From positions 327,456 through 391,455 of the forward strand of contig NZ_CADFEN010000007.1 in NCBI RefSeq assembly GCF_902833145.1: 64,000 bases of DNA, in the 5' to 3' direction. Made by a program: the position numbers and the translations under genes. Of the stretch, positions 8,967-49,710 are shown piece after piece (position 1 is the stretch's first letter; every line of letters begins with the position of its first letter). The stretch is from Burkholderia sp. BCC0506 (lineage in GTDB: Bacteria; Pseudomonadota; Gammaproteobacteria; Burkholderiales; Burkholderiaceae). The notes under the pieces are model-generated. The model had not been told where the DNA came from. It searched no databases and worked only from the letters and a program-made list of their open reading frames with translations.

Positions 8967-9755
8967 TCACTGATCGAGACACCGCACGCACAGCCGCTTC
9001 GCCTGGTTCGCCGGCAGCCCGCGGCACATCATCACGACCGGCCGCGCATGGCACGACGGCGCATCCGCGGACGCGGCGGGCAACGGCAGGCGGCGCGCGC
9101 GTTCGGGCGGCGTCGTGGCGGCCGCGGCCATGCGCCGCTCGCGCGCCTGCGGCGGCGTGTCGGTCACGACGGGAATCGGCTCGATGCCGCCTTCGCGCGC
9201 GTTGCGCTGCGCGCTCGCGACGACGCGGCTCACGTAGCCGCTCGAAAAGCCGGTCGTGAAGTTGCCGCTGTAGTAGCACGACAGCGCCGCGCGCAACGCG
9301 GCCTGCGTCGCGCGGCCGGTGCCCGACGAGCGCGCGAAGCATTCGGTCAGGATCGCGCCGCCGGCCCGCAGGTTGCGGCACGGCTCGAACATCGTCGCAT
9401 CGTCGAGCCCGTATTTCGCGAAATTGCGTTCGTTCACCTGCGCGAGGCCGACGCTGTAGCTGAAACCGCGCGACGCCAGCTCGCGCGCGGTCGCGCGTGC
9501 TTCGTCGAGCGACGCGGGCTGGCGCGCCAGGTGCCCCCCGACCACGCCGATCGCATACGGATTGAAGCCCGACTCGGTGCGCACGAGCGCGGCGAGCGTC
9601 GCCGGGTCGACGTTCGGCGCGCAGGCGCGCGCCAGTTGCGCGAAAGCGGCGCCGCCGCCGGCCGCCAGCGCGACGCGCGGCGGCAGGCACGCGAGCGCGA
9701 GCAGGGCCAGTGCGCCCAGGCACGCGGCGAGTGTTCGCAGGCGGCGCGCGTTCAT
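8967..9755 (-). CDS. Type III secretion-associated lytic transglycosylase
   Basis: 262 residues, with an N-terminal signal-like segment (basic start, Leu/Ala core, about residues 1-32) and an SLT domain. The catalytic-type motif RTESGFNPYAIG is followed by VGLAQVN and a CYYSGNF-like segment, as in IagB/VirB1-type enzymes that open peptidoglycan for a secretion machine. Two cysteines (CAPN, EPCRN) fit a periplasmic disulphide. The ATG overlaps the TGA of sctR (ATGA), so translation is probably coupled. The C-terminal 70 residues are Arg/Pro-rich with several cysteines and fall outside the catalytic domain. Role in T3SS assembly is inferred from family and position. Confidence 0.85.
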   Translation of the reverse strand: MNARRLRTLAACLGALALLALACLPPRVALAAGGGAAFAQLARACAPNVDPATLAALVRTESGFNPYAIGVVGGHLARQPASLDEARATARELASRGFSYSVGLAQVNERNFAKYGLDDATMFEPCRNLRAGGAILTECFARSSGTGRATQAALRAALSCYYSGNFTTGFSSGYVSRVVASAQRNAREGGIEPIPVVTDTPPQARERRMAAAATTPPERARRLPLPAASADAPSCHARPVVMMCRGLPANQAKRLCVRCLDQ

Positions 9756-10426
9756 CCCGCACCCGCCACGCGGTACGACAGCACGAGCCCGTGCACGAGC
9801 AGCGACCAGCCGTCGAGCGCGACGAACAGGAGCAGCTTGAACGGCACCGAGATCGTCGTCGGCGAGATCATCTGCATGCCGAGCGCCAGCAGGATGTTCG
9901 CGACCAGCAGGTCGACGACGATGAACACGATGTAGATCACGAAGCCGATCTGGAACGCCTTCGTCAACTCGGCGAGCGTGAAGCTCGGCACCAGCACGAG
10001 CAGGTCGTCGTCCTTGATGCCGTCCGCGCGGTTCTTCGGCCACACCGACGTCGCGGTGCGCACGAAGAACTCGCGGTCGCGCTGGCGCGTATGCGACACG
10101 AGGAAATCCTTGATCGGCGGCAGCGCGGCATCGGCGAGCGCGCCGATGTCCGAGGTCGACAATTGCCCCGACGCATCGAAGTGGCGCGCCTGCAGCGCGT
10201 CGCGGATCGACATCCCGACGGGCGCCATGATGAACAGCGACAGGATCAGCGCGATGCCGTTCAGCACGAGGTTCGGCGGCACCTGCTGGATCCCGAGCGC
10301 GGAGCGCAGCAGGCCGAGCACGACCACCAGCTTCGTGTAGCTCGTCACCATCAGCGCCGCGAACGGCGCGATGCCGAGCGCGGCGATCACCGCGATCAGC
10401 GCGACCGGATTCGGCAGGTTGCCCAT
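9752..10426 (-). CDS. sctR: Type III secretion export-gate protein SctR
   Basis: 224 residues, the usual size of the SctR/FliP family. The sequence shows an N-terminal hydrophobic helix, the family signature MVTSYTKLVVVLGLLRSALG, then QQVPPN and a second membrane helix. A periplasmic segment follows (about 75-150) and then two membrane helices with FQIGFVIYIVFIVVDLLVAN and MISP-type motifs. It forms part of the inner-membrane export gate with SctS and SctT. It lies 3 bases after sctQ and overlaps the transglycosylase. No sctS or sctT follows inside the window, which is unusual; they may lie to the left of base 1. Confidence 0.95.
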   Translation of the reverse strand: MGNLPNPVALIAVIAALGIAPFAALMVTSYTKLVVVLGLLRSALGIQQVPPNLVLNGIALILSLFIMAPVGMSIRDALQARHFDASGQLSTSDIGALADAALPPIKDFLVSHTRQRDREFFVRTATSVWPKNRADGIKDDDLLVLVPSFTLAELTKAFQIGFVIYIVFIVVDLLVANILLALGMQMISPTTISVPFKLLLFVALDGWSLLVHGLVLSYRVAGAG

Positions 10427-10429
10427 CGT

Positions 10430-11530
10430 TCAGCGCTCGCGCGGCGCGGGCTGCGTCAGCGTGACGACGCGCACGCCGAGCTTCTGGCCGACCGCGATCA
10501 GGTGGCCGGTGCCGATCAGCATCCCGTTCGCGACGAGATGGATCACGCTCTGGTTGATCCCCTGCTGCAGCTCGATCACGGCGCCCGGCTGCAGCGCGCT
10601 CAGCTCGCCCAACGGCATCGACGTGGGCGGCAGCTCGAAGCGCAGGTCGACCGCGAGGCCGTCGAGCGAGCGCGGTGCGTCGGCGGCCGGCGCGTCGTGC
10701 GTCGTCGGCGGGGCGGAGTCGGTGCGGGTCGGTTCCAAAGGCATCTCCCTGATTCGTTCGACGGTCAGCCGGTTGCCCGACGGCCGTCCGGTGATCTCCC
10801 ACGCCGGCGCGGCCGGCAGCCGCGCGACGCACAGCAGGTTCTGCTCGTGCGCCTGCCAGCGCTCGATCGCGATGATGTCGCCGGCGACGACGTCGGCCAG
10901 CTCGGCTGTCGTCAGCTCGGTGCGGCCGATCTCGAACACGAGCGGCACGGGCAGGCTCGCGTAGGCCGCGCGCGCGTCGGCGAGTGCGGGCGGTGCGGCC
11001 GCGAAGAACACGGCCAGCGCATCCGGCGCGTCGAACAGCAGCGCGCCGTGGCAGCGCCATGCGGCGTCGGCGCGCCGCAGCTCGAAGCGCAGCGCGGCCG
11101 GCGATGCGTGCCAGGCGCGTGCGCCGTCGGGGGGCGGCAGCAGTTCCACGCGCTGCCGCGTCGCCGCCCGCAGCACGGCCGCGAGCGGCGCGCACAGATC
11201 GGCGAGCAGCGCCGCGCGGATCACGGCCGGAACCGCCGGGTCGGCCGCGTCGCCGAGCCATTCGGTTTCCGCGACCGGGTCGATCCACAGCGTGCCGGCG
11301 GCCGGGCCGACGACGAAGCGGTACGCGTGCGCATCGGCGGCCGGTTCGGCGTCGACGCGCCAGCGCACCTCGTACGCGTGTTCGCCGAGCGTGATCGGGA
11401 CGGCGGCCGTCGCGCCGTACGCATGCGACAGCCCGCGCGCGGCGGCGGCGGACAGGCGCGGCAGGTAGGGCGACGCGTCGAGCGCGACCGCGGCCGGCGC
11501 GGCGGCGGGCGGTTCGGAAGCGGCGGGCAT
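10430..11530 (-). CDS. sctQ: Type III secretion sorting-platform protein SctQ
   Basis: About 366 residues if the ATG at 11530 is used. The frame is open further upstream, but that part is Arg/Pro-rich and reads through the intergenic hairpins. No strong ribosome site was seen for either, so the start is uncertain. The C-terminal ~75 residues form a FliN/SpoA domain: DLRFELPPTSMPLGELSALQ, then a PGAVIEL turn and an IVANG-like strand ending GVRVVTL. SctQ builds the cytoplasmic C-ring or sorting platform that presents substrates to the ATPase. Immediately upstream of sctR, so sctQ, sctR and the transglycosylase form one transcription unit. Confidence 0.88.
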   Translation of the reverse strand: MPAASEPPAAAPAAVALDASPYLPRLSAAAARGLSHAYGATAAVPITLGEHAYEVRWRVDAEPAADAHAYRFVVGPAAGTLWIDPVAETEWLGDAADPAVPAVIRAALLADLCAPLAAVLRAATRQRVELLPPPDGARAWHASPAALRFELRRADAAWRCHGALLFDAPDALAVFFAAAPPALADARAAYASLPVPLVFEIGRTELTTAELADVVAGDIIAIERWQAHEQNLLCVARLPAAPAWEITGRPSGNRLTVERIREMPLEPTRTDSAPPTTHDAPAADAPRSLDGLAVDLRFELPPTSMPLGELSALQPGAVIELQQGINQSVIHLVANGMLIGTGHLIAVGQKLGVRVVTLTQPAPRER

Positions 11531-11805
11531 GGCCCGGTTCGCGGCGTCGCCGGCGTCGGCATTCGTCAGGAACAGCGCAGGCACGGCGGGATCGGGGCGG
11601 ATTCGGCGTTGGTTCGACGGGTTGTTCCGGGGCCGGCGGCGCCGAGGGGCGCGCGGCTGCTGCGTCGATTGTAGGGACGGCGATGGCCGCGTGCCGCGCC
11701 GGAATCCGTAGTCGCGGCCACCGCCCGGAGGCGGCGGAAGCGGGGCGCTACGAAGCGTGCCGCAGTGCGGCGCAGCGGCGGCGGGCGCGACGCGACGCCC
11801 GGCGG

Positions 11806-16762: not shown

Positions 16763-19420
16763 TCATTTCGCGACGACCGTCGTCTGCAGGAACGCGGGCG
16801 CGATCCGCCAGTCCGGCACATAGTGCGCGGGCCACGCGCCGGGCGTATCGACGGCGTTGAAATAGACCACCGCGTTCAGCAGCGGATAGCGCCACAGCGA
16901 GCGCTGGAATTCGTCGAGTTCCGCACGCTTGCGCGCATTCGAGCCGTCGACGCCGAGCTCCGCGACCATCACCGGCAATCCGTAGTCGGCTACCCGTTCG
17001 TATTTGGCGCGCAGGATGTTCGCGGCCGAGAACGGGCCGCCGAGCGGCCAGATCGCGCAGCGCGGACAGTCGAACACCGACAGGCCCACTTCGTCCACAT
17101 AGCCGCGCCCCGGGAAATAGTCGTCGAGATTCCGGTTGCCGGCCGGCGACCACACGAAGCGGATCCGGTCGGTCATCGCGCGGCACGCGGTGACGACGCG
17201 CCGGTACGCGGCGACGTAAGCCGACGCGTCGCCGACGGCCCACGGATAGCGTCCGGTGTCCGTCTCCATCTCGTGGCCCCATCGCACGAACACGGGCCCT
17301 TTCAACGCGGCGAGCGCTGAACAGGTCGCGGCGATTCGCGCGTCGTAGCGCCCGTGCGCGATATCGTCGAGCAGCGCGCCCGGGCGCGTGCCGTCCGCCG
17401 CCCACGGCTCGACGGTCAGCAGCAGCGAGCGGTTGTGCGCTTGCGAGGCACGGTACGCGTCGCCGATTTCCGCGTCGATATCGGGTGCGTTCCACGACAC
17501 GAACACGTGGTCGAACGCGATGCCCGGCATGGCCGTGAACACCTTGCCGGGATCGTACGCGCCGAGCGCGGGCTGCTTCACCGCCGCGCCCGGCGCGGGT
17601 TCGGCCACCGCGACGGCCGGCACGCCCGAGCGCCACACCATCGCCTGCCAGCCTTTCGGCGCGCGCAGCCCGATGCCCGTCAGCAGCATCGCCAGCGCGA
17701 AGACGAACAGCGCGTTGCGCACGGGCAGGCGGCTCGCGAACATCTGCCTGAACGTCGACGCGCCGAGCCCTTGCTCCTTGCCGTGCTGCACGGCGATGAC
17801 GGCTGCGATCACCAGATACAGGATGCTCGTGAGCGTCGAGAACAGATAGAAGCCGGCCGCGTTGCGCGGGTTGTCGATCGCGACCACCGGCAGGCTGCAG
17901 AACAGCGAGATCAGCAGGTAAGGCGCGACGACGCGCAGCGGCGCGTCCAGCTCGACCGTGCCGCCCTTCGGCGTGACCTTGAACGGAAATTCCCGGCCGC
18001 GCACGCAATCGAGCAGCGCCGACACGCAGCCGAGCACGACCCACGGCCAGCGCGCGAACACGAACGTGAGCCCTTCCCACGACAGCAGCTTCGTGTTCAG
18101 CGGCCGGCACGACTGCGTCGCCTGCGTGGCCCAGGTCACGACGCAGAGGATCAGCACGGAGAGCGGCAACGCGTAGGTGAGGTACGTGAGGTAGTCGACG
18201 TGCGCCCACACGCGGCCGGTCAGCAACGCGACGACCGGAATCGCGACGCTGCCGGCCATCGCGAGCGCGCACAGCGGGTACCACAGCTGGCAGAACAGGA
18301 ACTGCGCCTTGAGCTTCGGCGGCAAGCCCATGAAATAGCGGCGCGTGTAGCGCAGCATGATGATCATCACGCTCCTGGACCACTGGAATTCCTGCGTGGC
18401 GAGGTCGCCGAACGTGCGCGGCCCTTCGCCGTTCGCGATCGCGTTCAGCGCGTGCATGCCGCGCCAGCCTTTCGCGTTGAAGATCATCGTGGTCGAGTGA
18501 TCCTCGGCGAGTTCCGGCCCGAGCCCGCCGATCTCGCGCAGCGCGCGGCAGCGCACCGCGTAGTGCGAGCCGATGCAGAGCGGCGCGAGGCCGCCCGCGT
18601 AGCCGGCCTGCATCGTGCCGTGCAGCGGCCCCTCGACGTTCACGCGGCCGCGCGCGCTCCAGCTCCCGGCCGCGTTGCTGTCGCAGATGCTCGGGGCCGA
18701 CACGTAGCCGATGCCCGGATCGACGAACGGCCGCAGCATCTCCTCGAGATAGGTGCGGGTCGGCACATGGTCGGCGTCGAGCTGCGACACGAAATCGTAG
18801 TGGTCGTAGCCGACCGTGTCGTAGAAGTACGCGAGGTTGCCTTCCTTGCAACGGGTCCGGCGCGGCCAGCTCGCGCGGTGATACGCGGCAATGCCGCGCC
18901 GCGTCGACACGAACACGCCGTGCGCGCGGCACCAGTCGAGCGTGGCGGGCGACGGGTCTTCATCGGCGAGCCACGTGTCGTGCGGATAGGTCTGGTCGAG
19001 CATTGCGAGCAGCGTCGTGCGCACGATGTCGAACGGCTCGGACGGCGCCTTGGTGACGACCATCGCGACGCGCCAGTCGCGCGGCACGGGCAGGGCGGGG
19101 TTCGGCACCACCGCCGAGCGGATGATGAAGATGAAATAGCCGGGGATGAAGGTGGTCCAGAACAGCACGAAGCCGTTGACGCCGAAGCGGAACGCGTCGA
19201 CATAGTGCTCGTCGCGCAGCCACCAGCGCCAGAAGATGCCGAGCGCGACGAACCAGCCCAGCGCGAGGATCTGGAAGACGATCCGCGTGCCGCTGTCCAT
19301 CAGCGGGACGACGAACGGAATCGCCGCTTGCCGCGCATCGCTGCGATCGGCTTCGGCGTCCGCGGTGTCGGCGGTAGCCGGCGCGTGCGCGCCGGCAAGC
19401 GATGCAACCAGCTTCTCCAT
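16763..19420 (-). CDS. GT2 polysaccharide synthase fused to a GH26-like glycoside hydrolase
   Basis: 885 residues from ATG 19420 (GGAG upstream). N-terminal half: two membrane helices (about 45-105), a family 2 glycosyltransferase domain with DADH (D215, D217) and the AEDHST acceptor motif, QEFQWSRS in place of the usual QxxRW, and several further helices (about 365-620) like cellulose/hyaluronan-type synthases. After a linker, residues about 640-885 form a GH26-like barrel: RWGHEMETDTGRYPW with acid/base E717 and MVAELGV with nucleophile E821, so both catalytic glutamates appear intact. The single protein would polymerise and export a glycan and carry a mannanase-type hydrolase or transglycosidase facing it. 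Last gene of a four-gene operon with sugar-nucleotide enzymes; glycan composition unknown. Confidence 0.87.
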   Translation of the reverse strand: MEKLVASLAGAHAPATADTADAEADRSDARQAAIPFVVPLMDSGTRIVFQILALGWFVALGIFWRWWLRDEHYVDAFRFGVNGFVLFWTTFIPGYFIFIIRSAVVPNPALPVPRDWRVAMVVTKAPSEPFDIVRTTLLAMLDQTYPHDTWLADEDPSPATLDWCRAHGVFVSTRRGIAAYHRASWPRRTRCKEGNLAYFYDTVGYDHYDFVSQLDADHVPTRTYLEEMLRPFVDPGIGYVSAPSICDSNAAGSWSARGRVNVEGPLHGTMQAGYAGGLAPLCIGSHYAVRCRALREIGGLGPELAEDHSTTMIFNAKGWRGMHALNAIANGEGPRTFGDLATQEFQWSRSVMIIMLRYTRRYFMGLPPKLKAQFLFCQLWYPLCALAMAGSVAIPVVALLTGRVWAHVDYLTYLTYALPLSVLILCVVTWATQATQSCRPLNTKLLSWEGLTFVFARWPWVVLGCVSALLDCVRGREFPFKVTPKGGTVELDAPLRVVAPYLLISLFCSLPVVAIDNPRNAAGFYLFSTLTSILYLVIAAVIAVQHGKEQGLGASTFRQMFASRLPVRNALFVFALAMLLTGIGLRAPKGWQAMVWRSGVPAVAVAEPAPGAAVKQPALGAYDPGKVFTAMPGIAFDHVFVSWNAPDIDAEIGDAYRASQAHNRSLLLTVEPWAADGTRPGALLDDIAHGRYDARIAATCSALAALKGPVFVRWGHEMETDTGRYPWAVGDASAYVAAYRRVVTACRAMTDRIRFVWSPAGNRNLDDYFPGRGYVDEVGLSVFDCPRCAIWPLGGPFSAANILRAKYERVADYGLPVMVAELGVDGSNARKRAELDEFQRSLWRYPLLNAVVYFNAVDTPGAWPAHYVPDWRIAPAFLQTTVVAK

Positions 19421-19446: not shown

Positions 19447-20850
19447 TCAGTTCTGAAGCAGGCCGCGGAGCAGCGGGGTGTCCTCGCTCGCGTCCGGCGG
19501 TGTCGTCGGCGGCTCTGCCGGCGCGCGTTCGCCGCACGAGCGGCCCACGCGTTCGTAACGGCGAAAGCCGCTGTCGGCGGCCAGCCGTTCGCTGAACAGG
19601 TTGCGCATGTCGAGCATCACGGGGTCGGCCATGTGATCGGCGAGGTCGGCGAGATCGAGCGTCTCGAACGCCTTCCATTCGGTCATCACGACGACGGCGT
19701 CCGCGCTGCGCACCGCGTCGACCGCGGAGCCTTCCATGAAGACCTGCGGCAGCAGCCGCGACGCCTCGTGCGGACGCGCGGGGTCGTACGCACGGATATG
19801 CGCGCCCGCGCCGACGAGCAACTGGATCACGTCGATGCTCGGGCTTTCGCGCACGTCGTCGGTCTGGCCTTTGAAGGTGAGGCCGAGCACCGCGATGCGC
19901 TTGCCCTTGATCGAGCCGCCGCACGCGTGCTCGATGCGTCGGAGGATCCGTTCCTTGCGCAGCGCGTTCGATTCGATCGCCGCGCTGACGATGCGCAGCG
20001 GCACCGCATGCTCGGAAGCCGTCGCCTTCAGCGCGCGCGTGTCCTTCGGGAAGCATGAGCCGCCCCAGCCGGGGCCGGCCTTCAGGAACGACGCGCCGAT
20101 GCGCCGGTCGAGGCCCATTCCGTTCGCGACCAGCTCGACATCGGCGCCGACCGCTTCGCACAGGTCGGAGATCTCGTTGATGTAGCTGATCTTCACCGCG
20201 AGGAACGCGTTCGCCGCGTATTTGACGAGTTCGGCCGTCTCGATCTCGGTCGCGAGCACGAGATGGCCGGCCGCTTCCAGCGGCGCGTAGATCGCCTTCA
20301 TGATCGCGATCGCACGCGGATGCTCGGCGCCGAACACGATGCGATCCGGATGCATGAAATCGTCGATCGCCGAGCCTTCGCGCAGGAATTCCGGATTCGA
20401 CGCGATCGCCGCTTCGATGCCGTCCGGCGCGCAGCGCTCGACGATCCGCGCGACGATCCGGTTGGTGCCGACCGGCACCGTCGACTTGGTGACGATCACC
20501 GCGAAGCCGGCCAGGTTCGCCGCGATTTCCCGCGCGGCCGCCTCGACGTATTGCAGGTCCGCGCGATCGGTGCCCGGCAGCGTCGGCGTGCCGACCGCGA
20601 TGAACACCGCGTCGCGGTCGCGCACGCTGGCGGCCAGGTCGCTGCTGAAGCGCAGCGCGCCGCGTTCGACGTTGCGGGCGACGACGGCGTCGAGGCCCGG
20701 TTCGTAGATCGGCATGCGGCCTTCGTTCAGCGCGTCGATCTTGCCGCGATTGTTGTCGATGCAGACGACGTCATGCCCGAGATCGGCAAAGCATGCGCCG
20801 CTGACCAGGCCGACGTAGCCCGTACCGACGATGGCGATCCGCACATTCAT
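19447..20850 (-). CDS. ugd: UDP-glucose 6-dehydrogenase
   Basis: 467 residues. The N-terminal NAD site is IAIVGTGYVGLVSGACFADLG. The catalytic cysteine is C266 in GWGGSCFPKDT, with the conserved NPEFLREG and KYAANAFLAVKISYINE motifs and a C-terminal UDP-binding domain (VLGLTFKGQTDDVRESPS). It oxidises UDP-glucose to UDP-glucuronate with two NAD+. The last 40 residues are Pro/Glu-rich and exceed the core enzyme. In this operon its product is the substrate of the UDP-glucuronate decarboxylase two genes upstream, giving a UDP-glucose to UDP-xylose route. Confidence 0.95.
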   Translation of the reverse strand: MNVRIAIVGTGYVGLVSGACFADLGHDVVCIDNNRGKIDALNEGRMPIYEPGLDAVVARNVERGALRFSSDLAASVRDRDAVFIAVGTPTLPGTDRADLQYVEAAAREIAANLAGFAVIVTKSTVPVGTNRIVARIVERCAPDGIEAAIASNPEFLREGSAIDDFMHPDRIVFGAEHPRAIAIMKAIYAPLEAAGHLVLATEIETAELVKYAANAFLAVKISYINEISDLCEAVGADVELVANGMGLDRRIGASFLKAGPGWGGSCFPKDTRALKATASEHAVPLRIVSAAIESNALRKERILRRIEHACGGSIKGKRIAVLGLTFKGQTDDVRESPSIDVIQLLVGAGAHIRAYDPARPHEASRLLPQVFMEGSAVDAVRSADAVVVMTEWKAFETLDLADLADHMADPVMLDMRNLFSERLAADSGFRRYERVGRSCGERAPAEPPTTPPDASEDTPLLRGLLQN

Positions 20851-20889: not shown

Positions 20890-21879
20890 TTACCTGCTTG
20901 ATTCGAGTTGCCGCGCCTGCTGAAACCACGCCGCCGCGTGTTCGACCATCGGCTCGATCGCGGTGAAGCGCGGTCGCCAGCCGAGCACCCGCGCGGCCAT
21001 CGTCGCGTCGGCATACAGGGCCGGTGGATCGCCCGGGCGGCGCGCGGCCAGCACCGTCGGCACGCGACGGCCCGTCACGGCCTCGACCGCGCGCAGCGCG
21101 GCGAGCACCGACGTCCCGTTGCCGGTGCCGAGATTCAGCGCGACGCTCGGGCCGCCGCCGCACAGATAGGCGGTCGCCTTCAGGTGGGCGTCGGCGAGAT
21201 CGCTCACGTGCACGTAGTCGCGAATCGCGGAGCCGTCGGGCGTCGGGTAGTCGGTGCCCATCACGCGGAACGCGTCGCCGGTGCGCAGCGCCGCGCGGAT
21301 CGCCAGCGGCAGCGCATGCGTTTCCGGCGCGTGACATTCGCCGATCTCGCCGTCCGGGTCCGCGCCCGCCGCGTTGAAGTAGCGCAGGGCGACCCATTTC
21401 AATCCGTAGGCGCGGTCGAAATCGGCGGCCATCCGTTCCATCGCGTATTTCGTGAAGCCATACGGATTGATCGGCCGCTGCGGCGTGCGCTCCGAGATCG
21501 GCAGCGCATCGGGAATGCCGTACGTCGCGCACGACGACGACATCACGATCCGACCGACGCCGGCCGCGTGCATCGCGCTCAGCAGCGTGCAGGTGCCTGT
21601 CAGGTTGACCGTGTAGTAGCGCTCGGGCGCGAGCACCGATTCGCCGACGTACGCGAGCGCGGCGAAATGGATCACGACGTCGGGCCGGTGCACGGCGAGC
21701 GCTTTCGACAGCGCGGTGCGGTCGAGGATGTCGGCCGCGACGAGCGGCCCCCAGCGGACCGCGTCGCGATGGCCGGTCGACAGGTTGTCGTACGCGACCG
21801 GCTCGTGTCCCGCTTGCGCGAGCGCCTTGCACGTATGGCTGCCGATGTAGCCCGCGCCCCCTGTCACGAGCACCTTCAT
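20890..21879 (-). CDS. galE: UDP-glucose 4-epimerase-like enzyme
   Basis: 329 residues from ATG 21879, which overlaps the stop of the preceding gene (ATGA). It is an extended SDR with VLVTGGAGYIGSHTCKAL at the N-terminus, the SSSCATYG serine motif, catalytic YGFTK, and LRYFNAAGADPDG typical of GalE. It interconverts UDP-hexoses such as UDP-Glc/UDP-Gal, or possibly UDP-Xyl/UDP-Ara given the operon; sequence alone does not decide. It lies between the decarboxylase and UDP-glucose dehydrogenase genes and supplies the glycosyltransferase. Confidence 0.9.
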   Translation of the reverse strand: MKVLVTGGAGYIGSHTCKALAQAGHEPVAYDNLSTGHRDAVRWGPLVAADILDRTALSKALAVHRPDVVIHFAALAYVGESVLAPERYYTVNLTGTCTLLSAMHAAGVGRIVMSSSCATYGIPDALPISERTPQRPINPYGFTKYAMERMAADFDRAYGLKWVALRYFNAAGADPDGEIGECHAPETHALPLAIRAALRTGDAFRVMGTDYPTPDGSAIRDYVHVSDLADAHLKATAYLCGGGPSVALNLGTGNGTSVLAALRAVEAVTGRRVPTVLAARRPGDPPALYADATMAARVLGWRPRFTAIEPMVEHAAAWFQQARQLESSR

Positions 21880-22883
21880 GCGATCGCTCCGGTCCCGTGC
21901 AGCACCGGCGCGAGCCACAGTTCGCGGCTGAAATGGTCGACCGTGCGGCGCAGGCCTTCGTCGAGATCGATCGCGGGCCGCCAGCCGAGCTCCGTCGCGG
22001 CGACCGAGATGTCGGGTTTGCGCTGGTGCGGATCGTCGATCGGCAGCGGCCGGAACACGATCTCCGACGTCGAGCCGGTCAGCGCGAGGACTTGCTCCGC
22101 CAGCTCGATCATCGTGAATTCGCCGGGATTGCCGAGATTGACCGGCGTGCCGACGTTGCGCGGGGCATCCATCAGGCTGAAGAAGCCGTCGATCAGGTCG
22201 CTGACGAAGCAGAACGAACGCGTCTGCCGGCCGTCGCCGTAGATCTCGAGCGCGGCGCCGTTGAGCGCGGCGACGATGAAGTTCGACACGACGCGGCCGT
22301 CGCGCGGCGACATGCGCGGGCCATAGGTATTGAAGATGCGCGCGACGCGCACGTCGACACCGTGCAAACGGTAGTAGTCGTAGCACAGCGCCTCGGCCGC
22401 ACGCTTGCCCTCGTCGTAGCACGCGCGCGGGCCGATCGTGTTGACGTTGCCGCGATAGGTTTCCATCTGCGGATGGACGCCCGGGTCGCCGTAGATCTCG
22501 CTGGTCGACGCCTGGAACACGCGCGCACCGGTCTTGCGCGCGAGCGCGAGACAATGGTTCATGCCGAGCACGTTCGTCATCATCGTGTGGACGGGATCGA
22601 TCTGGTAGGTGGGCGGCGACGCCGCGCACGCGAGATTCCAGATTTCGTCCACCTGCAGTTGCGGCAGGCCGAGCGACACGTCGCCGTTCACGAATTCGAA
22701 ACGGCCGGACGCCTTCAGATCGGCGACGTTGAGCTTGCGTCCGGTCAGCAGGCTGTCGACGCAGGTGACGAACGCGCCTTCCATCACGAGGCGCTCGCAC
22801 ACGTAGCTGCCGAGAAAGCCCGCGCCGCCCGTGACCAGTGCGTGCCGGCCGGCGCGCGCGTCGATCGCGACCCGGTCATTCAT
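21876..22883 (-). CDS. UDP-glucuronate decarboxylase (UDP-xylose synthase)-like SDR
   Basis: 335 residues from ATG 22883 with AAGGAG 8 bases upstream. Extended SDR fold: ALVTGGAGFLGSYVCERL, the VDSLLTGRKLN ribose-binding loop, NLACAASPPTYQIDPVHTM, FQASTSEIYGDP, CYDEGKRAAE with the YxxxK pair, and RIFNTYGPRM. These motifs are typical of UDP-glucuronate decarboxylases, which release CO2 to give UDP-xylose. First gene of the polysaccharide operon, about 300 bases downstream of a sigma-54-type promoter on the same strand. Confidence 0.88.
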   Translation of the reverse strand: MNDRVAIDARAGRHALVTGGAGFLGSYVCERLVMEGAFVTCVDSLLTGRKLNVADLKASGRFEFVNGDVSLGLPQLQVDEIWNLACAASPPTYQIDPVHTMMTNVLGMNHCLALARKTGARVFQASTSEIYGDPGVHPQMETYRGNVNTIGPRACYDEGKRAAEALCYDYYRLHGVDVRVARIFNTYGPRMSPRDGRVVSNFIVAALNGAALEIYGDGRQTRSFCFVSDLIDGFFSLMDAPRNVGTPVNLGNPGEFTMIELAEQVLALTGSTSEIVFRPLPIDDPHQRKPDISVAATELGWRPAIDLDEGLRRTVDHFSRELWLAPVLHGTGAIA

Positions 22884-23189
22884 GGCTTTCTCCTTCGTCG
22901 AGCATCTGCAGGAACCACACGTCGATTGGCTCGACGGCGTCGCGCACGCGTGCCATCCCGCTGCACGGGTATCGCGTCGGCAGGCGCCGGTCCGCCTGTG
23001 CCGATGTCGACGAAGCGCCGCGACAGGCGCTCCGGTTTCGCTGACAACCCCGTTGATGCTTGAACGACGCAAGCGTCGATCGATCGGTGGTGATCTTCAT
23101 CGCCTTTTCCCCGACACGCTGATTGACGAGCGGCCGCCGCTTGGTTTTCGTGTGCCTGGGCGTGCCGCTCGGTGAGAGCCGGACATCAG

Positions 23190-23204
23190 GCAATCGGCAT
23201 GCCA
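23190..23204 (-). promoter_or_regulatory. Sigma-54 (-24/-12) promoter for the polysaccharide operon
   Basis: Minus-strand sequence TGGCATG-N4-TTGC (TGGCATGCCGATTGC) has the invariant GG-N10-GC spacing and matches the consensus TGGCACG-N4-TTGC at all but one specified base. It reads left into the UDP-glucuronate decarboxylase gene, whose ATG is about 300 bases away. Confidence 0.75.
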
Positions 23205-23268
23205 TGACCGACGCAGTCCCGCTGCATGCGGGCGTGGCCGTGCAATGGCCGTTCGGCCCGCGCATTTG

Positions 23269-23275
23269 TGTTTCA
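23269..23275 (-). promoter_or_regulatory. TGAAACA dyad, proximal to leftward sigma-54 promoter
   Basis: TGAAACA on the minus strand, forming TTCA-N4-TGAAACA, with 64 bases between it and the -24 box. It overlaps a perfect 12-bp palindrome, TTCACGCGTGAA (23272-23283). Candidate upstream activator site. Confidence 0.45.
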
Positions 23276-23402
23276 CGCGTGAATCGTGGGGACAGGGAAG
23301 CGCCCGTGGCGAGCGCGGGATCGATACGGTTCGATACGACGAAATGCGCGATAAATCAGGCTTTTACAGGATTGAAGGTGTAAAAACCGTTTTTAATCGG
23401 CA

Positions 23403-23409
23403 TGTTTCA
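23403..23409 (-). promoter_or_regulatory. TGAAACA dyad, distal to leftward sigma-54 promoter
   Basis: Minus-strand CTCA-N4-TGAAACA, 198 bases upstream of the leftward -24 box; same orientation relative to its promoter as the other three copies. Confidence 0.42.
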
Positions 23410-23817
23410 GTGATGAGAATTGGGCAGGTAAAGGATCGAACATGTCTCTTCAATGAATTGATCGTCCGTGGCTCATGGATGAGGCGTGAATCGAGTGAAA
23501 ACGAAAAGAAACGATGCGCTCGCTTGCGACAGGATCGCGTTTACATTTGTTTTAATTATTACGTCCGCAGAGCGCCGGATGACAAGGCTTTTTACCGCGT
23601 GATCGTGTCGGTATTTTCACGGATGAATCAAATTCGTTTCGAGTTTTGGGGTGAATCGGTGTTCCGGCCTTGTCGGCAGCCGTGCGACGTGGGGCAACGG
23701 ACGCCAGGAACCTCGTTCGCCGGGGGAATGGACGGCATGCCGGCATGCGGTAACCCGCTGTTTGTCAGCGGAAACGCGCGAACCGCGGGCCATGCGACGA
23801 GGAACGCTTCTCAAGTT

Positions 23818-23824
23818 TGAAACA
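23818..23824 (+). promoter_or_regulatory. TGAAACA dyad, distal to rightward sigma-54 promoter
   Basis: Plus-strand CTCA-N4-TGAAACA, 200 bases upstream of the rightward -24 box, mirroring the distal leftward site. Confidence 0.42.
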
Positions 23825-23943
23825 CCGGTTCGCACGGGCGTCCGGCGGGCTTCGGCGGGCCGGATTCGTCCGTCAAATCACGGGATTGCGTCGCAATGTT
23901 CAATGATCGCCCCGAAGTGCCCCTCGTTATCGCGATACATTCC

Positions 23944-23950
23944 TGAAACA
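23944..23950 (+). promoter_or_regulatory. TGAAACA dyad, proximal to rightward sigma-54 promoter
   Basis: Plus-strand TACA-N4-TGAAACA, 74 bases upstream of the rightward -24 box, mirroring the proximal leftward site. Confidence 0.45.
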
Positions 23951-24024
23951 AAAAATGTCGTTCCAGGCGAAATGATCAGGCCACGCGGGCGCATGCCGCG
24001 CGCAGCGTCCGGTGGAATATCGCA

Positions 24025-24039
24025 TGGCATGTGGTTTGC
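24025..24039 (+). promoter_or_regulatory. Sigma-54 (-24/-12) promoter for the secreted-protein operon
   Basis: TGGCATG-N4-TTGC (TGGCATGTGGTTTGC) with exact GG-N10-GC spacing; the -24 heptamer is identical to the one facing left at 23198-23204. It reads right toward the gene at 24946, leaving a leader of about 890 bases. No sigma-54 activator gene other than the one at 28796 lies nearby. Confidence 0.72.
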
Positions 24040-24623
24040 GACATTGGACGCACCGGCGAGCGGTCGACACGATGCAACAACGATGTGGGGGCGGCCAGTT
24101 CGTCATGAGCCAGTCGGGGAAGCGGCGATGAACACTATAAGCAGTGGCTTGATCCGCGCGTTTCTTGCGCACCATAGGGGTAGTCGGCACGATCGGGGTG
24201 TGGCTTGCGGCGCAGTGCCAGCGTCGCCGGTTGCGCCTTGCCCATTTCCCGCCCTCCGCGCGCGCCGCGTGCTGGAGCGACTGTCATTTCGCGCGACGAC
24301 CGGTCGACAGCGGTGCTCGACTGCGTTCAGCGTGCGCGGAAGGGCTAGGTTGTTCGTGCTGGACAGCGTGGCGCCGATTCCGCTTCAACCGTGCAGAGCC
24401 GTTTCGATCGCGCCGGACCAGTGCCGGCGCCGGCCGGATTAGATCGAACGCGCATCGGCCGGATTATCCGGAAGGCCTTTCTTCGATCGCTCAGGGAGCA
24501 GACATGCCGTCTGGCTGCAATGCACGCCAGTTATCGCCCGGCTGACGGGCGCGTGACGAACGGCCGCTGCATTTTGCGGTAACGAAACCATTCGCGAATT
24601 TTCGATTCCGGAAATGGACGCCG

Positions 24624-24869
24624 GTGCCGGCGCCCGTTTTAGAAGGGGTATTGAAAATCGCGAAATGGAAGGCTGCATGCAGCATTTCGGTTGATTTTAT
24701 TTGGGTGTTTTTAAATTGGCTCAATGTTCATAAAAATAATAGAAAACACCTACCAATAAATTTTGGACAACTTAAAAACATAAAACTAGACTTCGGCTGG
24801 CCAAAAGCAGAAGCGACAGTTCTAGATCCGGAAATAATTTCTCTATTTGATAGTGATCCTTATTTTTAA
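24624..24869 (+). other. AT-rich open frame, possible remnant of a foreign gene
   Basis: An 81-codon open frame starting at GTG 24624, with no clear ribosome site. From about 24640 to 24870 the base composition is much more AT-rich than anything else in the window. The last third reads like real protein (LDFGWPKAEATVLDPE, then a stretch ending FDSDPYF). It may be a fragment of a horizontally acquired gene, or AT-rich regulatory DNA that happens to be open. Not recognised. Confidence 0.3.
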
Positions 24870-24945
24870 GGATTGCTCGAGGCAGGAAGATCGATGGCGT
24901 GCGGTCTTCCATGCTCATTCTGTCCACGCCGTTTTGGAGTCGACC

Positions 24946-25269
24946 ATGAAGAAGCTTCTGATTGCAGCAGCAGTTCTGGCGGTTTCGGGTGCAGCGTTTG
25001 CCGGCAGCGGCACGGTGTCGAGCAGCAACTCGTCGAGCGGTGGCCAGACGATGGCCGGGGTCGTCGGGTTCGGCCACTTCTCCGCGACCGATTCGGGCTC
25101 GGCACTCGGCGCAGCCGGCGCAACGGCCGGTGGCGGCAGCAGCGGTTCGATCTCGTACACGAACCACACTCAAACGTCGACGGTCGGCGGCTTCGGCTTC
25201 GGCGGCGCACAAGCGGGCGGCAGCAGCGGTGCGAACGCCGGCTCGATCGGCTGGACGTATCACCACTAA
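24946..25269 (+). CDS. Small secreted Gly/Ser/Thr-rich protein
   Basis: 107 residues from ATG 24946 (GGAG 9 bases upstream). A clear signal peptide, MKKLLIAAAVLAVSGAAFAG, is cleaved after AFA. The mature chain is almost entirely Gly, Ser, Ala, Thr and Asn, with short aromatic-containing repeats (VGFGHFSA, VGGFGFGGA) and ends GWTYHH. There are no cysteines or catalytic motifs. Such composition is seen in fibre, amyloid-like or surface-coat subunits; function is not known. It leads a run of five secreted-protein genes and is followed by a strong GC hairpin that may favour its own mRNA, as for a major subunit. Confidence 0.8.
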   Translation: MKKLLIAAAVLAVSGAAFAGSGTVSSSNSSSGGQTMAGVVGFGHFSATDSGSALGAAGATAGGGSSGSISYTNHTQTSTVGGFGFGGAQAGGSSGANAGSIGWTYHH

Positions 25270-25311
25270 GCCGCGACGCGTAGCGTTCGTCATTGGCTGG
25301 CGGTGCGGATG

Positions 25312-25341
25312 CCGGGCCTTGCCCCGTGCGGGCAGGCCCGG
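25312..25341 (+). terminator. Strong intercistronic hairpin after the first secreted-protein gene
   Basis: CCGGGCC-TTGCCC pairs with GGGCA-GGCCCGG around a 5-base loop with one bulged base. No T-run follows, so it is better read as an mRNA-stabilising or pausing hairpin than a full terminator. Confidence 0.5.
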
Positions 25342-25380
25342 CTCCGCCGCCGTCGAACTTCCTCACAGCAAGGAATTGCT

Positions 25381-25971
25381 ATGAAAGCCAAAGTCATTTT
25401 AGCGACAGCGCTCACCGTCATTTCGTCCGCTGCGTTGGCGGCCGGTTCGTCCACGACCAACCAGACGCAATCCGTTGCGGCGGGTGTTTCCGGTTCGGTG
25501 CTGGTCGGCTCGGGCAGCTATACCAGCAATTCGACCTCGACGGCCGGCGCGAATGCAGGCAGTACCGTGACACCCGCCGGCTCCGCCGGCACGGCGTCCG
25601 CGTATCACAACTCGACTTCGACGGCCAGCGGTTCGGGCACGAACGGAGGCGCGTTCGCGGCAGGCGGCGGTATCGGCGCCGCAGGCTCGTTCGCCGGCAA
25701 CAGCAAGACGAACGAGAACGCGAATGCGCTGTCGGGAGGGGTGACTGCCACGATCGTACTCGGCGCGAACCACTACACCGCCACGGGTGCGAACGACAAC
25801 GGCAATGCCAACGCGGGTGCCGTGGGACTGACGGGCAGTGGCGGGTCGGGCGCGATCGCGGGCTCGAATCACTACAACGCGTCGACCGTGTGGAGTACCG
25901 GTCCGGCCGGTTCGCCGTCCGCATCGGGCGGAAGCCAGGCCGACTCGAGCGCGACCGGGAGCAGTCATTAG
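25381..25971 (+). CDS. Secreted Gly/Ser/Asn/Thr-rich low-complexity protein
   Basis: 196 residues from ATG 25381 (AAGGA upstream). Signal peptide MKAKVILATALTVISSAALA. The mature protein is built of Ser/Thr/Asn/Gly/Ala with recurring short units (NSTST-AGA, HNSTSTASGSG, GSNHYN, GANHYT) and no cysteines. The regular polar and glycine pattern and the NHYT/NHYN pairs suggest an extended or beta-solenoid-like fibre rather than an enzyme. Second gene of the sigma-54-linked operon, 111 bases after the first. Not recognised; a matrix or surface role is inferred. Confidence 0.78.
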   Translation: MKAKVILATALTVISSAALAAGSSTTNQTQSVAAGVSGSVLVGSGSYTSNSTSTAGANAGSTVTPAGSAGTASAYHNSTSTASGSGTNGGAFAAGGGIGAAGSFAGNSKTNENANALSGGVTATIVLGANHYTATGANDNGNANAGAVGLTGSGGSGAIAGSNHYNASTVWSTGPAGSPSASGGSQADSSATGSSH

Positions 25972-26043: not shown

Positions 26044-26325
26044 ATGAAGCAGAACCTGATTGCCGCCGCTCTGATGCTCGCGTCTCTGACGGCGTATGGC
26101 GCCGACCGTGCCGCCGATGGTGGGCAATCGACTATGCAGACGTCAAACAACCCTGACCAGACAACCAAACCGTCAGAACAACACACGCTTTCGTCGGGCA
26201 GTGCCATCGGCGGACCGGACGCCCAGCAGTGGCAGGGCATGTCGGCCGGCTCGTGGTCCCAGCTGGGCAGCGGCTGGAAGCAGTTCGGGGAAGCAGCGAA
26301 AACTGAAGGCATTCAGGGGAATTAG
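26044..26325 (+). CDS. Small secreted Gln/Ser-rich protein
   Basis: 93 residues from ATG 26044 with AAGGAG 8 bases upstream. Signal peptide MKQNLIAAALMLASLTAYGA. The mature ~74 residues are polar (DGGQSTMQTSNNPDQTTKPS) and end in WSQLGSGWKQFGEAAKTEG, a probable amphipathic helix. No cysteines and no known domain. It lies between the low-complexity proteins and the 524-residue protein, and could be an accessory or nucleator subunit; that is inference from order and size. Confidence 0.75.
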   Translation: MKQNLIAAALMLASLTAYGADRAADGGQSTMQTSNNPDQTTKPSEQHTLSSGSAIGGPDAQQWQGMSAGSWSQLGSGWKQFGEAAKTEGIQGN

Positions 26326-26369: not shown

Positions 26370-27944
26370 ATGAACAGCAACAGGATCAAGGTGGCATGTG
26401 CGGCGATGTTCGCGATGACCACGATCGGTGCCCAGGCGCAAACCGCCGATTCGACGTCGAGCGCGCAGTCGTCGACTTCGTCGACGGCGATCAGCCAGGG
26501 CGGCGGCTCGAGCATGAACACGAACACCACGAGCTCGCGCGGCGGCAATGCCACCAGCAGCAGCGGCGTGCGCGGCAGCGGCAATTCGAGCGTGAATGTC
26601 AACGTGACGATGCCGTCCGGCACGGCCGGCGGCAACGTGACGCCGCAGAGCGTGAACTCGCTGCAGTCCGCCGGTGCGCCCGGCACCAATCCGTACAACA
26701 CCCAGATTTCGGAAAACGTCAACTACTCGGGCACGCAAACGATCAAGACGAATCCGTCGATCCAGGCGCCGGGCCTCACGACCACGCTGTCCGATACCTG
26801 CATGGGCTCGGTGAGCGTCGGCGTGTCGTTCCCGGGGTTCGGCGCGACGGGCGGCACGACGCTGGTCGACCAGGCCTGCGTGCGGCGTCTCGATGCGCGC
26901 GAATTCCGGGCGATGGGGCTGACCGACGTGGCGCTCGCGCTGCTGTGCCAGAGCGACGCGAACCGGCGCGCGGTCGAAGCGACCGGGCACCTGTGCCCGG
27001 GCACGACCGCGCCGCTCGCGCGTTCGAACGTGGCGCCCAGCGTCGAAGCGACCGTCGCGGACGACATCAAGTATCGCGATCCGATCGTGCGCGACCGGAT
27101 GGGCCTGCCGCCGCTCGGCTCGGCGGCGCCGGTATCCGCCCCGACGCGCCCGATCGAGACGGCGTCGATGCGTGCCGCGCCCGTTTCGGTGCCGGTGCCC
27201 GTTCCGGTTCCGGCGCCCGCGCCGGTCGCCGTCGCGCCGGCAGTCGCGACGCCGACCGTTGCCGCGGCCGCACCGGCTGTCGCGGCGCCGGCCGCTGCCG
27301 CCGCCGTCCCGGCCGCCGCGGCACCTGCGGCGTCGGTCGCACCGGCCGCCGCGATGGCTGCCGTGCCGGCGGCAGCGGTCATCGCCGCGCCGGCCGTGGC
27401 GGACAAGGCATCGCCGGCGCCTGCCTCACCGATCGCCGATACGAAGGCGCCGGAGCCCGCTCAGCCGGTCGCCGACAAGGCGCCCGAGCCCGCGCCTGCC
27501 GTTGCCGACAAGGCGCCCGAGCCTGTCCAGCCCGTTGCCGACAAGGCACCGGAGCCGATGCCGGCCGCGACCGACACCGCGCAGGCCGCCGGCGAGCCGG
27601 TTGCCGAACCGATGCCGGCGGCGGCCGTCGTCGCGGCACCGGCATCGGCACCGGTAGCCGACGCGAAGGCAACCGAGCCGGCGCCGCAGGCAACGGCCGT
27701 AGCGCCCGCACCGGAAGCCGCGCAGCCTGCCGTTGCCGCGGCGCCGGCCGACGTGCCGGCAGCCGAGGCGAAAGTGCCCGACGCGGTCGAGCCCGCGGCC
27801 GCGGCCGCTGCGCCGCCCGCCGACATGCCGGCGTTGACCGATCCGGCGCAAGCATTGCCGCCGGCCACGGTCGACCAGCAGGCCGCCCCGGCCGCACCGG
27901 TCGCGCCGGCGCCTACCGTCATCTCGACGAGTACCTCGTCGTAG
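26370..27944 (+). CDS. Secreted protein with Ser/Asn-rich head and long Ala/Pro/Glu-repeat tail
   Basis: 524 residues from ATG 26370 (GGAGAG upstream). Signal peptide ends AQA at about residue 24. Residues 25-120 are Ser/Thr/Asn/Gly-rich like the two upstream proteins. Residues about 145-215 form a folded-looking domain with four cysteines (DTCMGSVSVGVSFPGFG, VDQACVRRLDAREF, ALLCQSDANRRAVE, HLCPG). From about 270 to the end the chain is almost only Ala, Pro, Val, Glu and Lys, with repeated units such as VADKAPEPA. That tail suits a wall- or peptidoglycan-spanning spacer or a matrix linker. Function unknown; it looks like the anchor or large subunit of the set. Confidence 0.75.
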   Translation: MNSNRIKVACAAMFAMTTIGAQAQTADSTSSAQSSTSSTAISQGGGSSMNTNTTSSRGGNATSSSGVRGSGNSSVNVNVTMPSGTAGGNVTPQSVNSLQSAGAPGTNPYNTQISENVNYSGTQTIKTNPSIQAPGLTTTLSDTCMGSVSVGVSFPGFGATGGTTLVDQACVRRLDAREFRAMGLTDVALALLCQSDANRRAVEATGHLCPGTTAPLARSNVAPSVEATVADDIKYRDPIVRDRMGLPPLGSAAPVSAPTRPIETASMRAAPVSVPVPVPVPAPAPVAVAPAVATPTVAAAAPAVAAPAAAAAVPAAAAPAASVAPAAAMAAVPAAAVIAAPAVADKASPAPASPIADTKAPEPAQPVADKAPEPAPAVADKAPEPVQPVADKAPEPMPAATDTAQAAGEPVAEPMPAAAVVAAPASAPVADAKATEPAPQATAVAPAPEAAQPAVAAAPADVPAAEAKVPDAVEPAAAAAAPPADMPALTDPAQALPPATVDQQAAPAAPVAPAPTVISTSTSS

Positions 27945-28099: not shown

Positions 28100-28684
28100 A
28101 TGAGGATCTTTTTGGTCGCTTTGCTGCTGGTCGGCGTGCAAGCCGCCGCGCAGTCGGTTTTCCAGAATCCCGCGGTCTTCGTCATCCTGAACGAGCAGAC
28201 GCTCGCGAACGCCGCGAGCGTGCAGCAGGCGCTGTCGACGCTCGGCCGTCCCGACAACACCGCGTGCGCGCCGATGATGATGATCGGCGACCCGCAGATG
28301 GTCTACATGATGCCGGAAGCGGGACACGCGCCGTCGTGGCAATCGCCGGCGTACGGCCGCGGTGCGCCGTTCGACGCGCAGAGCGGGCCGAAGCCGACCG
28401 GCAAGACGGTCGGCGCGATGCAGCACACCGAGGACATGCGGACGCAGCCGTGGAGCGACGGCAGCGCGATCACGCAGAAGATCGCCGGCGAGTCGAGCAT
28501 CGCGGCGTCGGACCGGGTGAACGAATGGCGGCACGCCGGGCTCGACAGGATCGAGACGGCCCGCGCGTCCGACGTGACGGTGAACGGCAAGACCTACCGC
28601 GCCTATCGCGACGATCTCAACGGATCGGCGCAGCCCGTCGTCGAGCCGCAGATCTACACGCAGCGCGTCGTGTTCTGCCGATGA
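28100..28684 (+). CDS. Secreted hypothetical protein of the matrix-like operon
   Basis: 194 residues from ATG 28100 with AAGGAGG 8 bases upstream. Signal peptide MRIFLVALLLVGVQAAAQS. Unlike its neighbours the mature protein has ordinary composition. It contains ACAPMMMIGDPQMVYMMPEA, several charged helices and two cysteines (CAPM and the penultimate VVFCR) that may form a disulphide. No known domain recognised. Position between the fibre-like proteins and the activator suggests a periplasmic chaperone, protease inhibitor or outer-membrane accessory role; none is shown by the sequence. Confidence 0.72.
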   Translation: MRIFLVALLLVGVQAAAQSVFQNPAVFVILNEQTLANAASVQQALSTLGRPDNTACAPMMMIGDPQMVYMMPEAGHAPSWQSPAYGRGAPFDAQSGPKPTGKTVGAMQHTEDMRTQPWSDGSAITQKIAGESSIAASDRVNEWRHAGLDRIETARASDVTVNGKTYRAYRDDLNGSAQPVVEPQIYTQRVVFCR

Positions 28685-28795: not shown

Positions 28796-30217
<1,422 letters not shown>

Positions 30218-49470: not shown

Positions 49471-49710
49471 ATGCCCGTGATCACGGTTCGAAATCTGCCC
49501 GACGAGGTGCATCGCGCGCTTCGAATTCGGGCTGCACAACATGGCCGCAGTACCGAGGCCGAGGTGCGAGACATCCTCGAGCAAGCCGTTCGGCCGGGAG
49601 GGCGGCCGAGACTGGGAACGTTGCTCGCTGAAATCGGGCGAGAGGCTGGCGGCATCGATTTCGAAGTTCGGCGTGACAAGACGCGAACCGATCCGATGAG
49701 CTTCGAATGA
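49471..49710 (+). CDS. fitA: FitA-like ribbon-helix-helix antitoxin
   Basis: 79 residues from ATG 49471, chosen because the family starts MPVITVRNLP; an in-frame ATG at 49435 lies inside the upstream repeat. MPVITVRNLPDEVHRALRIR is the DNA-binding beta strand and first helix of an Arc/MetJ fold, followed by GRSTEAEVRDILEQAV. The C-terminus (IDFEVRRDKTRTDPM) is expected to insert into the PIN toxin active site. Its stop overlaps the toxin start (ATGA). Confidence 0.9.
   Translation: MPVITVRNLPDEVHRALRIRAAQHGRSTEAEVRDILEQAVRPGGRPRLGTLLAEIGREAGGIDFEVRRDKTRTDPMSFE

Follow-up and report, generated by a model that had tools for sequence, protein, structure and literature searches.

A conserved divergent control region with two putative sigma-54 promoters and paired dyads between predicted polysaccharide and secreted-protein operons in Burkholderia

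Activators of sigma-54-dependent transcription bind sites upstream of their promoters, loop to the promoter and open the closed complex using adenosine triphosphate. According to the accessible portions of the published reports, the berA promoter of B. cenocepacia needs RpoN and BerB and is bound by BerB in vitro (PMC5552954), and BrfA of P. fluorescens activates fap as a sigma-54 activator (PMC9207406, PMC13101488). For V. cholerae, the portions at hand describe VpsR as activating the glycan (vps) and rbm clusters with VpsT (PMC8754643); it is reported to carry a deletion in GAFTGA, and an argument has been made against its being a sigma-54 activator (PMC3162934). Here we describe a region of Burkholderia sp. 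BCC0506 (genome of 7.29 Mb) that invites comparison with these systems. It lies in a 64-kb stretch of contig NZ_CADFEN010000007.1, referred to as the window, and consists of a gap of 2062 bases (22884..24945) between a predicted polysaccharide operon on the left and, on the right, genes for five putative secreted proteins (R1 to R5) followed by an activator gene. We consider it likely that this gap serves as a joint sigma-54 control region for the two divergent operons, with the protein encoded in the window as its main activator.

Two perfect matches to TGGCATG-N4-TTGC occur in the window, both of them in the gap, the ends of which agree with ATG codons at 22883 (minus strand) and 24946 (plus strand). 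The left putative promoter TGGCATGCCGATTGC, read directly from the sequence, is found at 23190..23204 on the minus strand and the right one TGGCATGTGGTTTGC at 24025..24039 on the plus strand; at both sites GG and GC stand exactly at the fixed distance of a -24/-12 promoter. Each promoter is preceded by two dyads on its own strand. On the left, the proximal dyad TTCACGCGTGAAACA (23269..23283, minus strand) and the distal dyad CTCATCACTGAAACA (23403..23417, minus strand) lie 64 and 198 base pairs from the -24 box, and on the right the distal dyad CTCAAGTTTGAAACA (23810..23824, plus strand) and the proximal dyad TACATTCCTGAAACA (23936..23950, plus strand) lie 200 and 74 base pairs from it. A previous sequence-only reading had proposed two divergent promoters sharing the heptamer and the TTGC spacing, together with four sites, two per strand, of the form YWCA-N4-TGAAACA. 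Promoters and sites were found where it had placed them, direct reading bore out the dyad at all four, and the recomputed spacings were identical.

The frequency of these motifs was compared with chance expectation. TGAAACA occurs seven times in the window against 1.96 expected, four copies being in the gap (23269 and 23403 on the minus strand, 23818 and 23944 on the plus strand). First-order Markov simulations of the gap gave a mean of 0.24 copies, in agreement with the former estimate of fewer than one, and reached four in 1 of 5000 runs. The full dyad is present eight times genome-wide, four of these in the gap, and not at all as its reversed control; with the density taken outside the gap, the Poisson probability of four dyads in 2062 bases is about 7e-14. 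The perfect promoter pattern was found seven times in 7.29 Mb (reversed control, one). With up to two mismatches allowed, 15 promoter matches in the window stand against 16.5 expected, and since this is no excess, only the perfect matches are informative.

Conservation was assessed in 49 gaps, namely those of the 45 genomes with an orthologue of the window activator (our own included), of the fragmented genome G079, in which the activator gene was not found, and of three named records. The orthologues, of at least 80% identity, come from a set of 65 Burkholderia genomes in which the next best match is 68% identical, and the gap with the right promoter is present in all 45. The right promoter pattern TGGCAY-N5-TTGC is exact in 49/49 gaps. 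The right proximal dyad is exact in 45, always at a spacing of 74-75, and has a single mismatch in the other four; the distal dyad is exact in 41/49, its exact copies being spaced at 188-201. Orthologous gaps devoid of promoters and dyads had been named beforehand as the outcome that would count against the region; the 49 gaps did not show it. Promoters, dyads, spacing and conservation, as well as the like boxes at family-linked promoters described below, are direct readings of the sequences compared.

On the left side, conservation follows the state of the operon, which is complete in 21 gaps, a remnant in 10 and absent from 18. In these three groups an exact left promoter is found in 21/21, 9/10 and 8/18 gaps, and at least two exact left dyads in 18/21, 3/10 and 2/18. 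Where the full left operon is present, the pair is thus found in 18/21 gaps, vs 5/28 elsewhere, or 4/28 when an exact left promoter is required as well; a Fisher test on the former counts gives 2.5e-6, a value that overstates the evidence, given the kinship of the species and the chance that one species is represented by more than one record. All 21 gaps with the full operon have one exact left dyad or more, vs 18/28 without it. Exact left dyads are spaced at 64-65 (14) or 76-85 (five), plus 197-220. The left dyads are less well kept where the left operon has been lost, and some absences with kept left sites are perhaps recent losses. In three genomes R1-R4 were not found, and R5 is absent or no more than a fragment; the activator gene there begins 274-539 base pairs after the right promoter, an arrangement that fits autoregulation. 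In six of the distant loci a dyad with a sigma-54 site at the module spacing was not seen.

The putative activator (28820..30217, plus strand) is by Pfam an enhancer-binding protein with a VpsR N-terminal domain, a sigma-54 AAA+ domain (PF00158, 1.5e-70) with intact GAFTGA and a Fis-type helix-turn-helix (HTH_8), and in a PDB search it matched VpsR (4e-57). The earlier label "VpsR-like" holds for the N-terminal domain; as functional models BerB and BrfA come closest, both reported to work with sigma-54. That it is the sole sigma-54 activator of the window agrees with our searches: one of the 20 activator-type matches listed genome-wide falls there, and Pfam scans covered part of the window open reading frames. 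The genome encodes four activators of this type, the three paralogues being 56-58% identical to the window protein. One of them is BerB (56%), which groups with other Burkholderia paralogues. Its locus has bep-type genes nearby and a Crp/Fnr gene preceded by the published berA RpoN site, letter-identical; a different Crp/Fnr gene in L063 had been taken for berA and was ruled out by the published promoter string. At the berA promoter a TGAGAC half-site is located 75-77 base pairs before the -24 box in 30/30 loci, our own genome included, these being the best 30 where 49/61 genomes matched the berA stretch. The TGAGAC version of the combined pattern has one match in our genome, the berA promoter.

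A second paralogue is located between thyA- and folA-like genes (named by eye) and has a divergent promoter with a dyad alongside. This promoter consists of TTTCA-N4-TGAAACA (TTACA in one case, the last base being G or A) and TGGCAYG-N4-TCGC at 73-75 base pairs, a layout seen in 20/20 relatives fetched, ten of which have no gene closely orthologous to the window activator. Downstream of it, several genes follow in six of those ten (L129, L131, L132, L134, L135, L136) and two genes in L138, and none was called in L130, L133 and L137. The L129 operon, the only one scanned with Pfam, has Fap features, namely a C39 peptidase (E 2e-20) and a protein weakly matching beta-barrel and coiled-coil models, and the other operons resemble it by eye. 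By the accessible part of one report, the B. cepacia complex is without fap genes (PMC3792158). An activator gene in the same direction was called after the operon in L129, L131, L132 and L134, and seven activators of this kind group together as the sister clade of the window activator (FastTree, 32 sequences, support values left aside). In our own genome, the promoter beside the thyA/folA-linked activator (L061:10085-10541) is followed by an open reading frame of 107 residues with a signal-peptide-like start. As a like box at a like distance stands at paralogue-linked promoters, also where a close orthologue of the window activator is lacking, the box seems to be recognised across the activator family.

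The combined module TGAAACA-N55..83-TGGCAY-N5-TTGC was then sought elsewhere. It occurs three times in our genome (control, none), twice in the gap and once at G000:C4:266388-266483, about 290 bases before the gene of a 219-residue outer-membrane-type protein. This third, unlinked module and its target span L067:9389-10432 (G000:C4:266388-267431). The protein is CarO-like at 36 bits vs a cut-off of 300 and has strong homologues (at least 81%) in 35/65 genomes. Among 16 relatives fetched at this gene, a sigma-54 site precedes the gene, or what is left of its 5' end, in 15; in G011 most of the gene is lost and the sigma-54 site is kept. The dyad pattern is present in eight of the 15, and the remaining seven and G011 have the TGAAACA half-site at module spacing. 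Relaxed matching yielded six modules in our genome: the two of the gap, those of the outer-membrane-type gene and the thyA/folA-linked promoter, one within an open reading frame and one intergenic. Across the 65 genomes the module was found in 47, comprising 44/45 with an activator orthologue and 3/20 without (G009, G073 and G079, the last being the fragmented genome that has the gap). Extra modules in G023, G063, G064, G001 and G015 are sporadic and confined to few species; two of these loci, L155 (G023) and L156 (G001), have a GTATCA-N4-TGAAACA box, and a clear target gene was not found at these two.

The proposed role of the window protein has to be weighed against other explanations. That the motifs arose by chance or base composition could be argued from the relaxed promoter matching, in which the window shows no excess; given the genome-wide rarity of the exact motifs and their conservation in 49 gaps, we take this explanation as refuted. 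It is also improbable that the two halves are separately controlled, the right module being functional and the left dyads being bound by another factor or answering a differing signal. The differing distances, 64-65 or 76-85 and 197-220 on the left vs 74-75 and 188-201 on the right, would suit such an arrangement, yet promoter heptamer, box and paired layout are common to both sides, and the paired left dyads go with the left operon. A more serious alternative, although in our view still an unlikely one, is that the dyads control both operons mainly through another paralogue (BerB, the thyA/folA-linked one or the third) and that the window gene is minor or redundant. Another paralogue could act because the C-terminal helices of the four are closely similar, and paralogue-linked promoters elsewhere have a similar box at a similar distance. 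In addition, G006 has diverged R1-R5 homologues (37-70% identity) whose sigma-54 site keeps dyad-like sequences 74 and 200 base pairs upstream, with two and three mismatches to TTCA-N4-TGAAACA; its best match to the window activator is 63%, and tblastn found no relative in the 16-kb stretch. Against this, the right-promoter gap is present in every one of the 45 genomes with an orthologue of at least 80%, and the activator is kept with the right promoter in the three genomes in which R1-R4 were not found.

Besides the similar helices and the G006 sites, several observations weigh against control of both operons by the window activator. The counts over gaps are not independent, as the species are related. 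Without the full left operon, 17/28 gaps still keep the left promoter and 18/28 one exact left dyad or more. In five of the 49 loci (G041, G046, G059, G071, G079) the activator lies outside the fetched stretch, so that its linkage to the gap was not seen there. The reversed-control module gave 12 matches in 12 of 65 genomes, and G009 and G073, without a close activator orthologue, have four module matches; G009 is also among the 15 relatives at the 219-residue gene, with a weaker TGGCGC version of the site. At berA the left half-site of the element is poor, and by our own count its TGAGAC lies only about six bases inside the published shift-assay fragment. The right leader would, at 0.9 kb, be unusually long, and a promoter closer to R1 is possible. 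A literature search returned neither transcript ends nor data on binding or mutants for the locus. It found no study of the locus either; the reference-strain locus tags were not identified, and absence from print is therefore not established. Of the earlier proposal that one activator serves the glycan and protein operons, shared control stands as the best reading; the window gene as sole actor is not established. We regard the window protein as the likeliest but not the only candidate, probably autoregulated.

The gene layout on both sides was obtained with a simple codon-usage caller and Pfam, and from order and strand the genes would form two operons. The left one, entirely on the minus strand, starts with a UDP-glucuronate decarboxylase-like gene (UXS, 21876..22883; UDP, uridine diphosphate; Pfam Epimerase 1e-45; UDP-glucuronate decarboxylase 1 in PDB, E 5e-106), followed by genes for a UDP-glucose 4-epimerase-like protein (GalE, 20890..21879), a UDP-glucose dehydrogenase with UDPG_MGDP_dh domains in Pfam (19447..20850) and a cellulose-synthase-like glycosyltransferase of family 2 with 885 residues (16763..19420). 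The C-terminal part of the latter is GH26-like and nearest to beta-1,3-xylanase. Its Pfam GH26 match is slightly under the cut-off and its NCBIfam CelA match (7e-17) far under; in PDB it matched cellulose synthase (4e-12) and beta-1,3-xylanase (3e-9), the C-terminal 215 residues alone giving 1e-9. With a family 2 synthase next to nucleotide-sugar genes, the left operon has the gene content of a synthase-dependent exopolysaccharide system, apparently of a UDP-xylose/cellulose-synthase-like/GH26-xylanase-like type. Because a route to UDP-xylose is combined with a synthase bearing a xylanase-like domain, the product may be a xylose-containing polymer, possibly a bacterial xylan-type exopolysaccharide. 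Further left in the window, FliP-like and FliN-like genes of export-apparatus type are found at 9752-11584.

The right operon, on the plus strand, would encode R1 (24946..25269, 107 residues, Gly/Ser-rich), R2 (25381..25971, 196 residues, Gly/Ser/Asn-rich), R3 (26044..26325, 93 residues), R4 (26370..27944, 524 residues, with an Ala/Pro-rich C-terminal half) and R5 (28100..28684, 194 residues), all with signal-peptide-like starts as judged by eye. R1 is weakly similar to R2 and matches R2 of G006 at E 0.001. Scans of R1-R5 against NCBIfam at E 0.01, and of R1, R4 and R5 against Pfam at gathering score, returned nothing; FapD C39 peptidase and FapF coiled-coil porin are thus not among the proteins so scanned. 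The AlphaFold models of R2 and R1, with mean pLDDT (per-residue confidence) of 28 and 40, are too low for use. R1-R5 would be secreted, and a matrix role is suggested by gene content. Elsewhere in the window, a small open reading frame beginning MILVDTNVIS (49707-50126) is PIN/VapC-like by eye.

If transcription starts at the right promoter, the message would carry a 5' leader of about 0.9 kb (24040..24945, plus strand). Its first 500 or so bases (24055-24534) are mostly 80-96% conserved in 46 sequences, without clear three-base periodicity; an AT-rich, less conserved patch at 24690-24870 interrupts the otherwise conserved, GC-rich leader. Close to R1, two predicted hairpins on the plus strand are followed by an invariant CACGCC (24925..24930, plus strand) directly before the GGAG ribosome site. 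H1 (24852..24877) has nine pairs; among the cells of 43 distinct sequences 99.0% are paired, and changes are one-sided only. H2 (24885..24910) has eight pairs, three of them changed on both sides, and an invariant GGCGTG loop to which CACGCC is complementary in 43/43; because both strings never vary, the pseudoknot between them counts as possible. Counting 23 pairs, six of them from the possible pseudoknot, 99.4% of the cells in the 43 distinct sequences are paired; 21 further pair types occur, and the pairs changed on both sides are all in H2. The covariation score was 0.192 vs 0.155 in shuffles (0/500 as high), the number of pairs changed on both sides was reached in 23/500 shuffles, and the window sequence alone folds at z -2.65 (3/200 shuffles as good). 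A column-shuffle scan of 24820-24939 gave z -19.0 on the plus and -8.2 on the minus strand; as it also scores the minus strand and 24400-24519 (z -4.2), the pair counts carry the argument for the hairpins. Each of the 43 genomes with R1, which served as training set, gave a single strong match to a covariance model. Outside these the model had one strong match, in G006 (L267, E 2.8e-7), immediately upstream of R1, all others having E above 0.01. Rfam searches of 22800-25400 at E up to 5 returned four matches, all under gathering score (E 3.2-4.3), which we take as chance. The stretch 24852-24930 thus appears to be a conserved two-hairpin RNA element before the R1 start codon, without an Rfam family at gathering score.

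From these features we infer binding, sigma-54 dependence, the acting paralogue and a cyclic di-guanosine monophosphate (c-di-GMP) signal, as follows. RNA polymerase with sigma-54 would sit silent on both -24/-12 promoters until a hexameric enhancer-binding protein of the BerB/BrfA type, most likely the one encoded last in the right operon, bound the paired dyads, looped to the promoter and opened it. The trigger would probably be c-di-GMP, which is the reported signal of BerB and BrfA. Leftward transcription would supply the enzymes for a synthase-type exopolysaccharide, rightward transcription the five secreted proteins and the activator, and the third, unlinked target a small outer-membrane-type protein. 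With its gene at the end of the right operon, the activator would raise its own level once triggered, a positive feedback. A fuller version can be offered tentatively, and we hold it to be possible rather than probable: in a matrix system absent from the reports consulted, the self-amplifying activator would drive, from a single divergent region, a xylose-based exopolysaccharide together with new Gly/Ser-rich matrix proteins. The polymer would be the product of the cellulose-synthase-like enzyme with its GH26 xylanase-like part, translation of the proteins would be gated by the hairpins or pseudoknot, and the whole would take the place of the Fap-type amyloid that related species have under a similar box.

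Both parts of a probable biofilm matrix look to be switched on together by one activator family, an arrangement kept in dozens of species. The region offers a precise, testable binding code for the BerB family, and perhaps BrfA, for which the portions of the reports at hand give no site; in this code a dyad precedes a sigma-54 promoter by about 74 base pairs, and often by about 200 as well. Output of the glycan and of the protein matrix would be tied to a single feedback switch. The locus would further bring a polysaccharide operon not studied so far, and secreted proteins that lack annotation, into Burkholderia biofilm biology, and would provide a case of operon loss accompanied by decay of regulatory sites. 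The polysaccharide operon, the secreted proteins and the structured leader are in our view its most interesting unknowns.

Among known systems, VpsR of V. cholerae has the N-terminal domain in common with the window activator and, with VpsT, serves a glycan cluster; the deletion reported in its GAFTGA sets it apart. The Fap-like operons of other Burkholderia have the same promoter architecture (20/20) and in four loci the activator following, as described above; C39 peptidase and coiled-coil porin matches were not found among the window R proteins scanned. BrfA/RpoN/fap of P. fluorescens PF07, as far as the available portions of the reports describe it (PMC9207406, PMC13101488), combines a c-di-GMP-responsive sigma-54 activator with an adjoining operon for secreted matrix proteins and a -24/-12 promoter. 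There, brfA is a reverse gene downstream of fap, whereas the right operon of the window is no fap operon and lies opposite one for a polysaccharide; the likeness is one of description, sequence and binding site not having been compared. With BerB/RpoN/berA of B. cenocepacia (Bcam1342, Bcam1349; PMC5552954, PMC9684580), again judged from the accessible parts, the locus has in common the activator family, the intact GAFTGA, the sigma-54 promoter, a half-site (TGAGAC, 75-77 base pairs) and an exopolysaccharide output. However, BerB is reported to act through berA as a second regulator, whereas the window promoters immediately precede the glycan and protein operons themselves, with two dyads each, and the window activator gene, unlike berB, ends its probable target operon. 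Taken together, the control region is real and conserved, is probably functional, and would represent a variant of BerB/BrfA-type matrix control.

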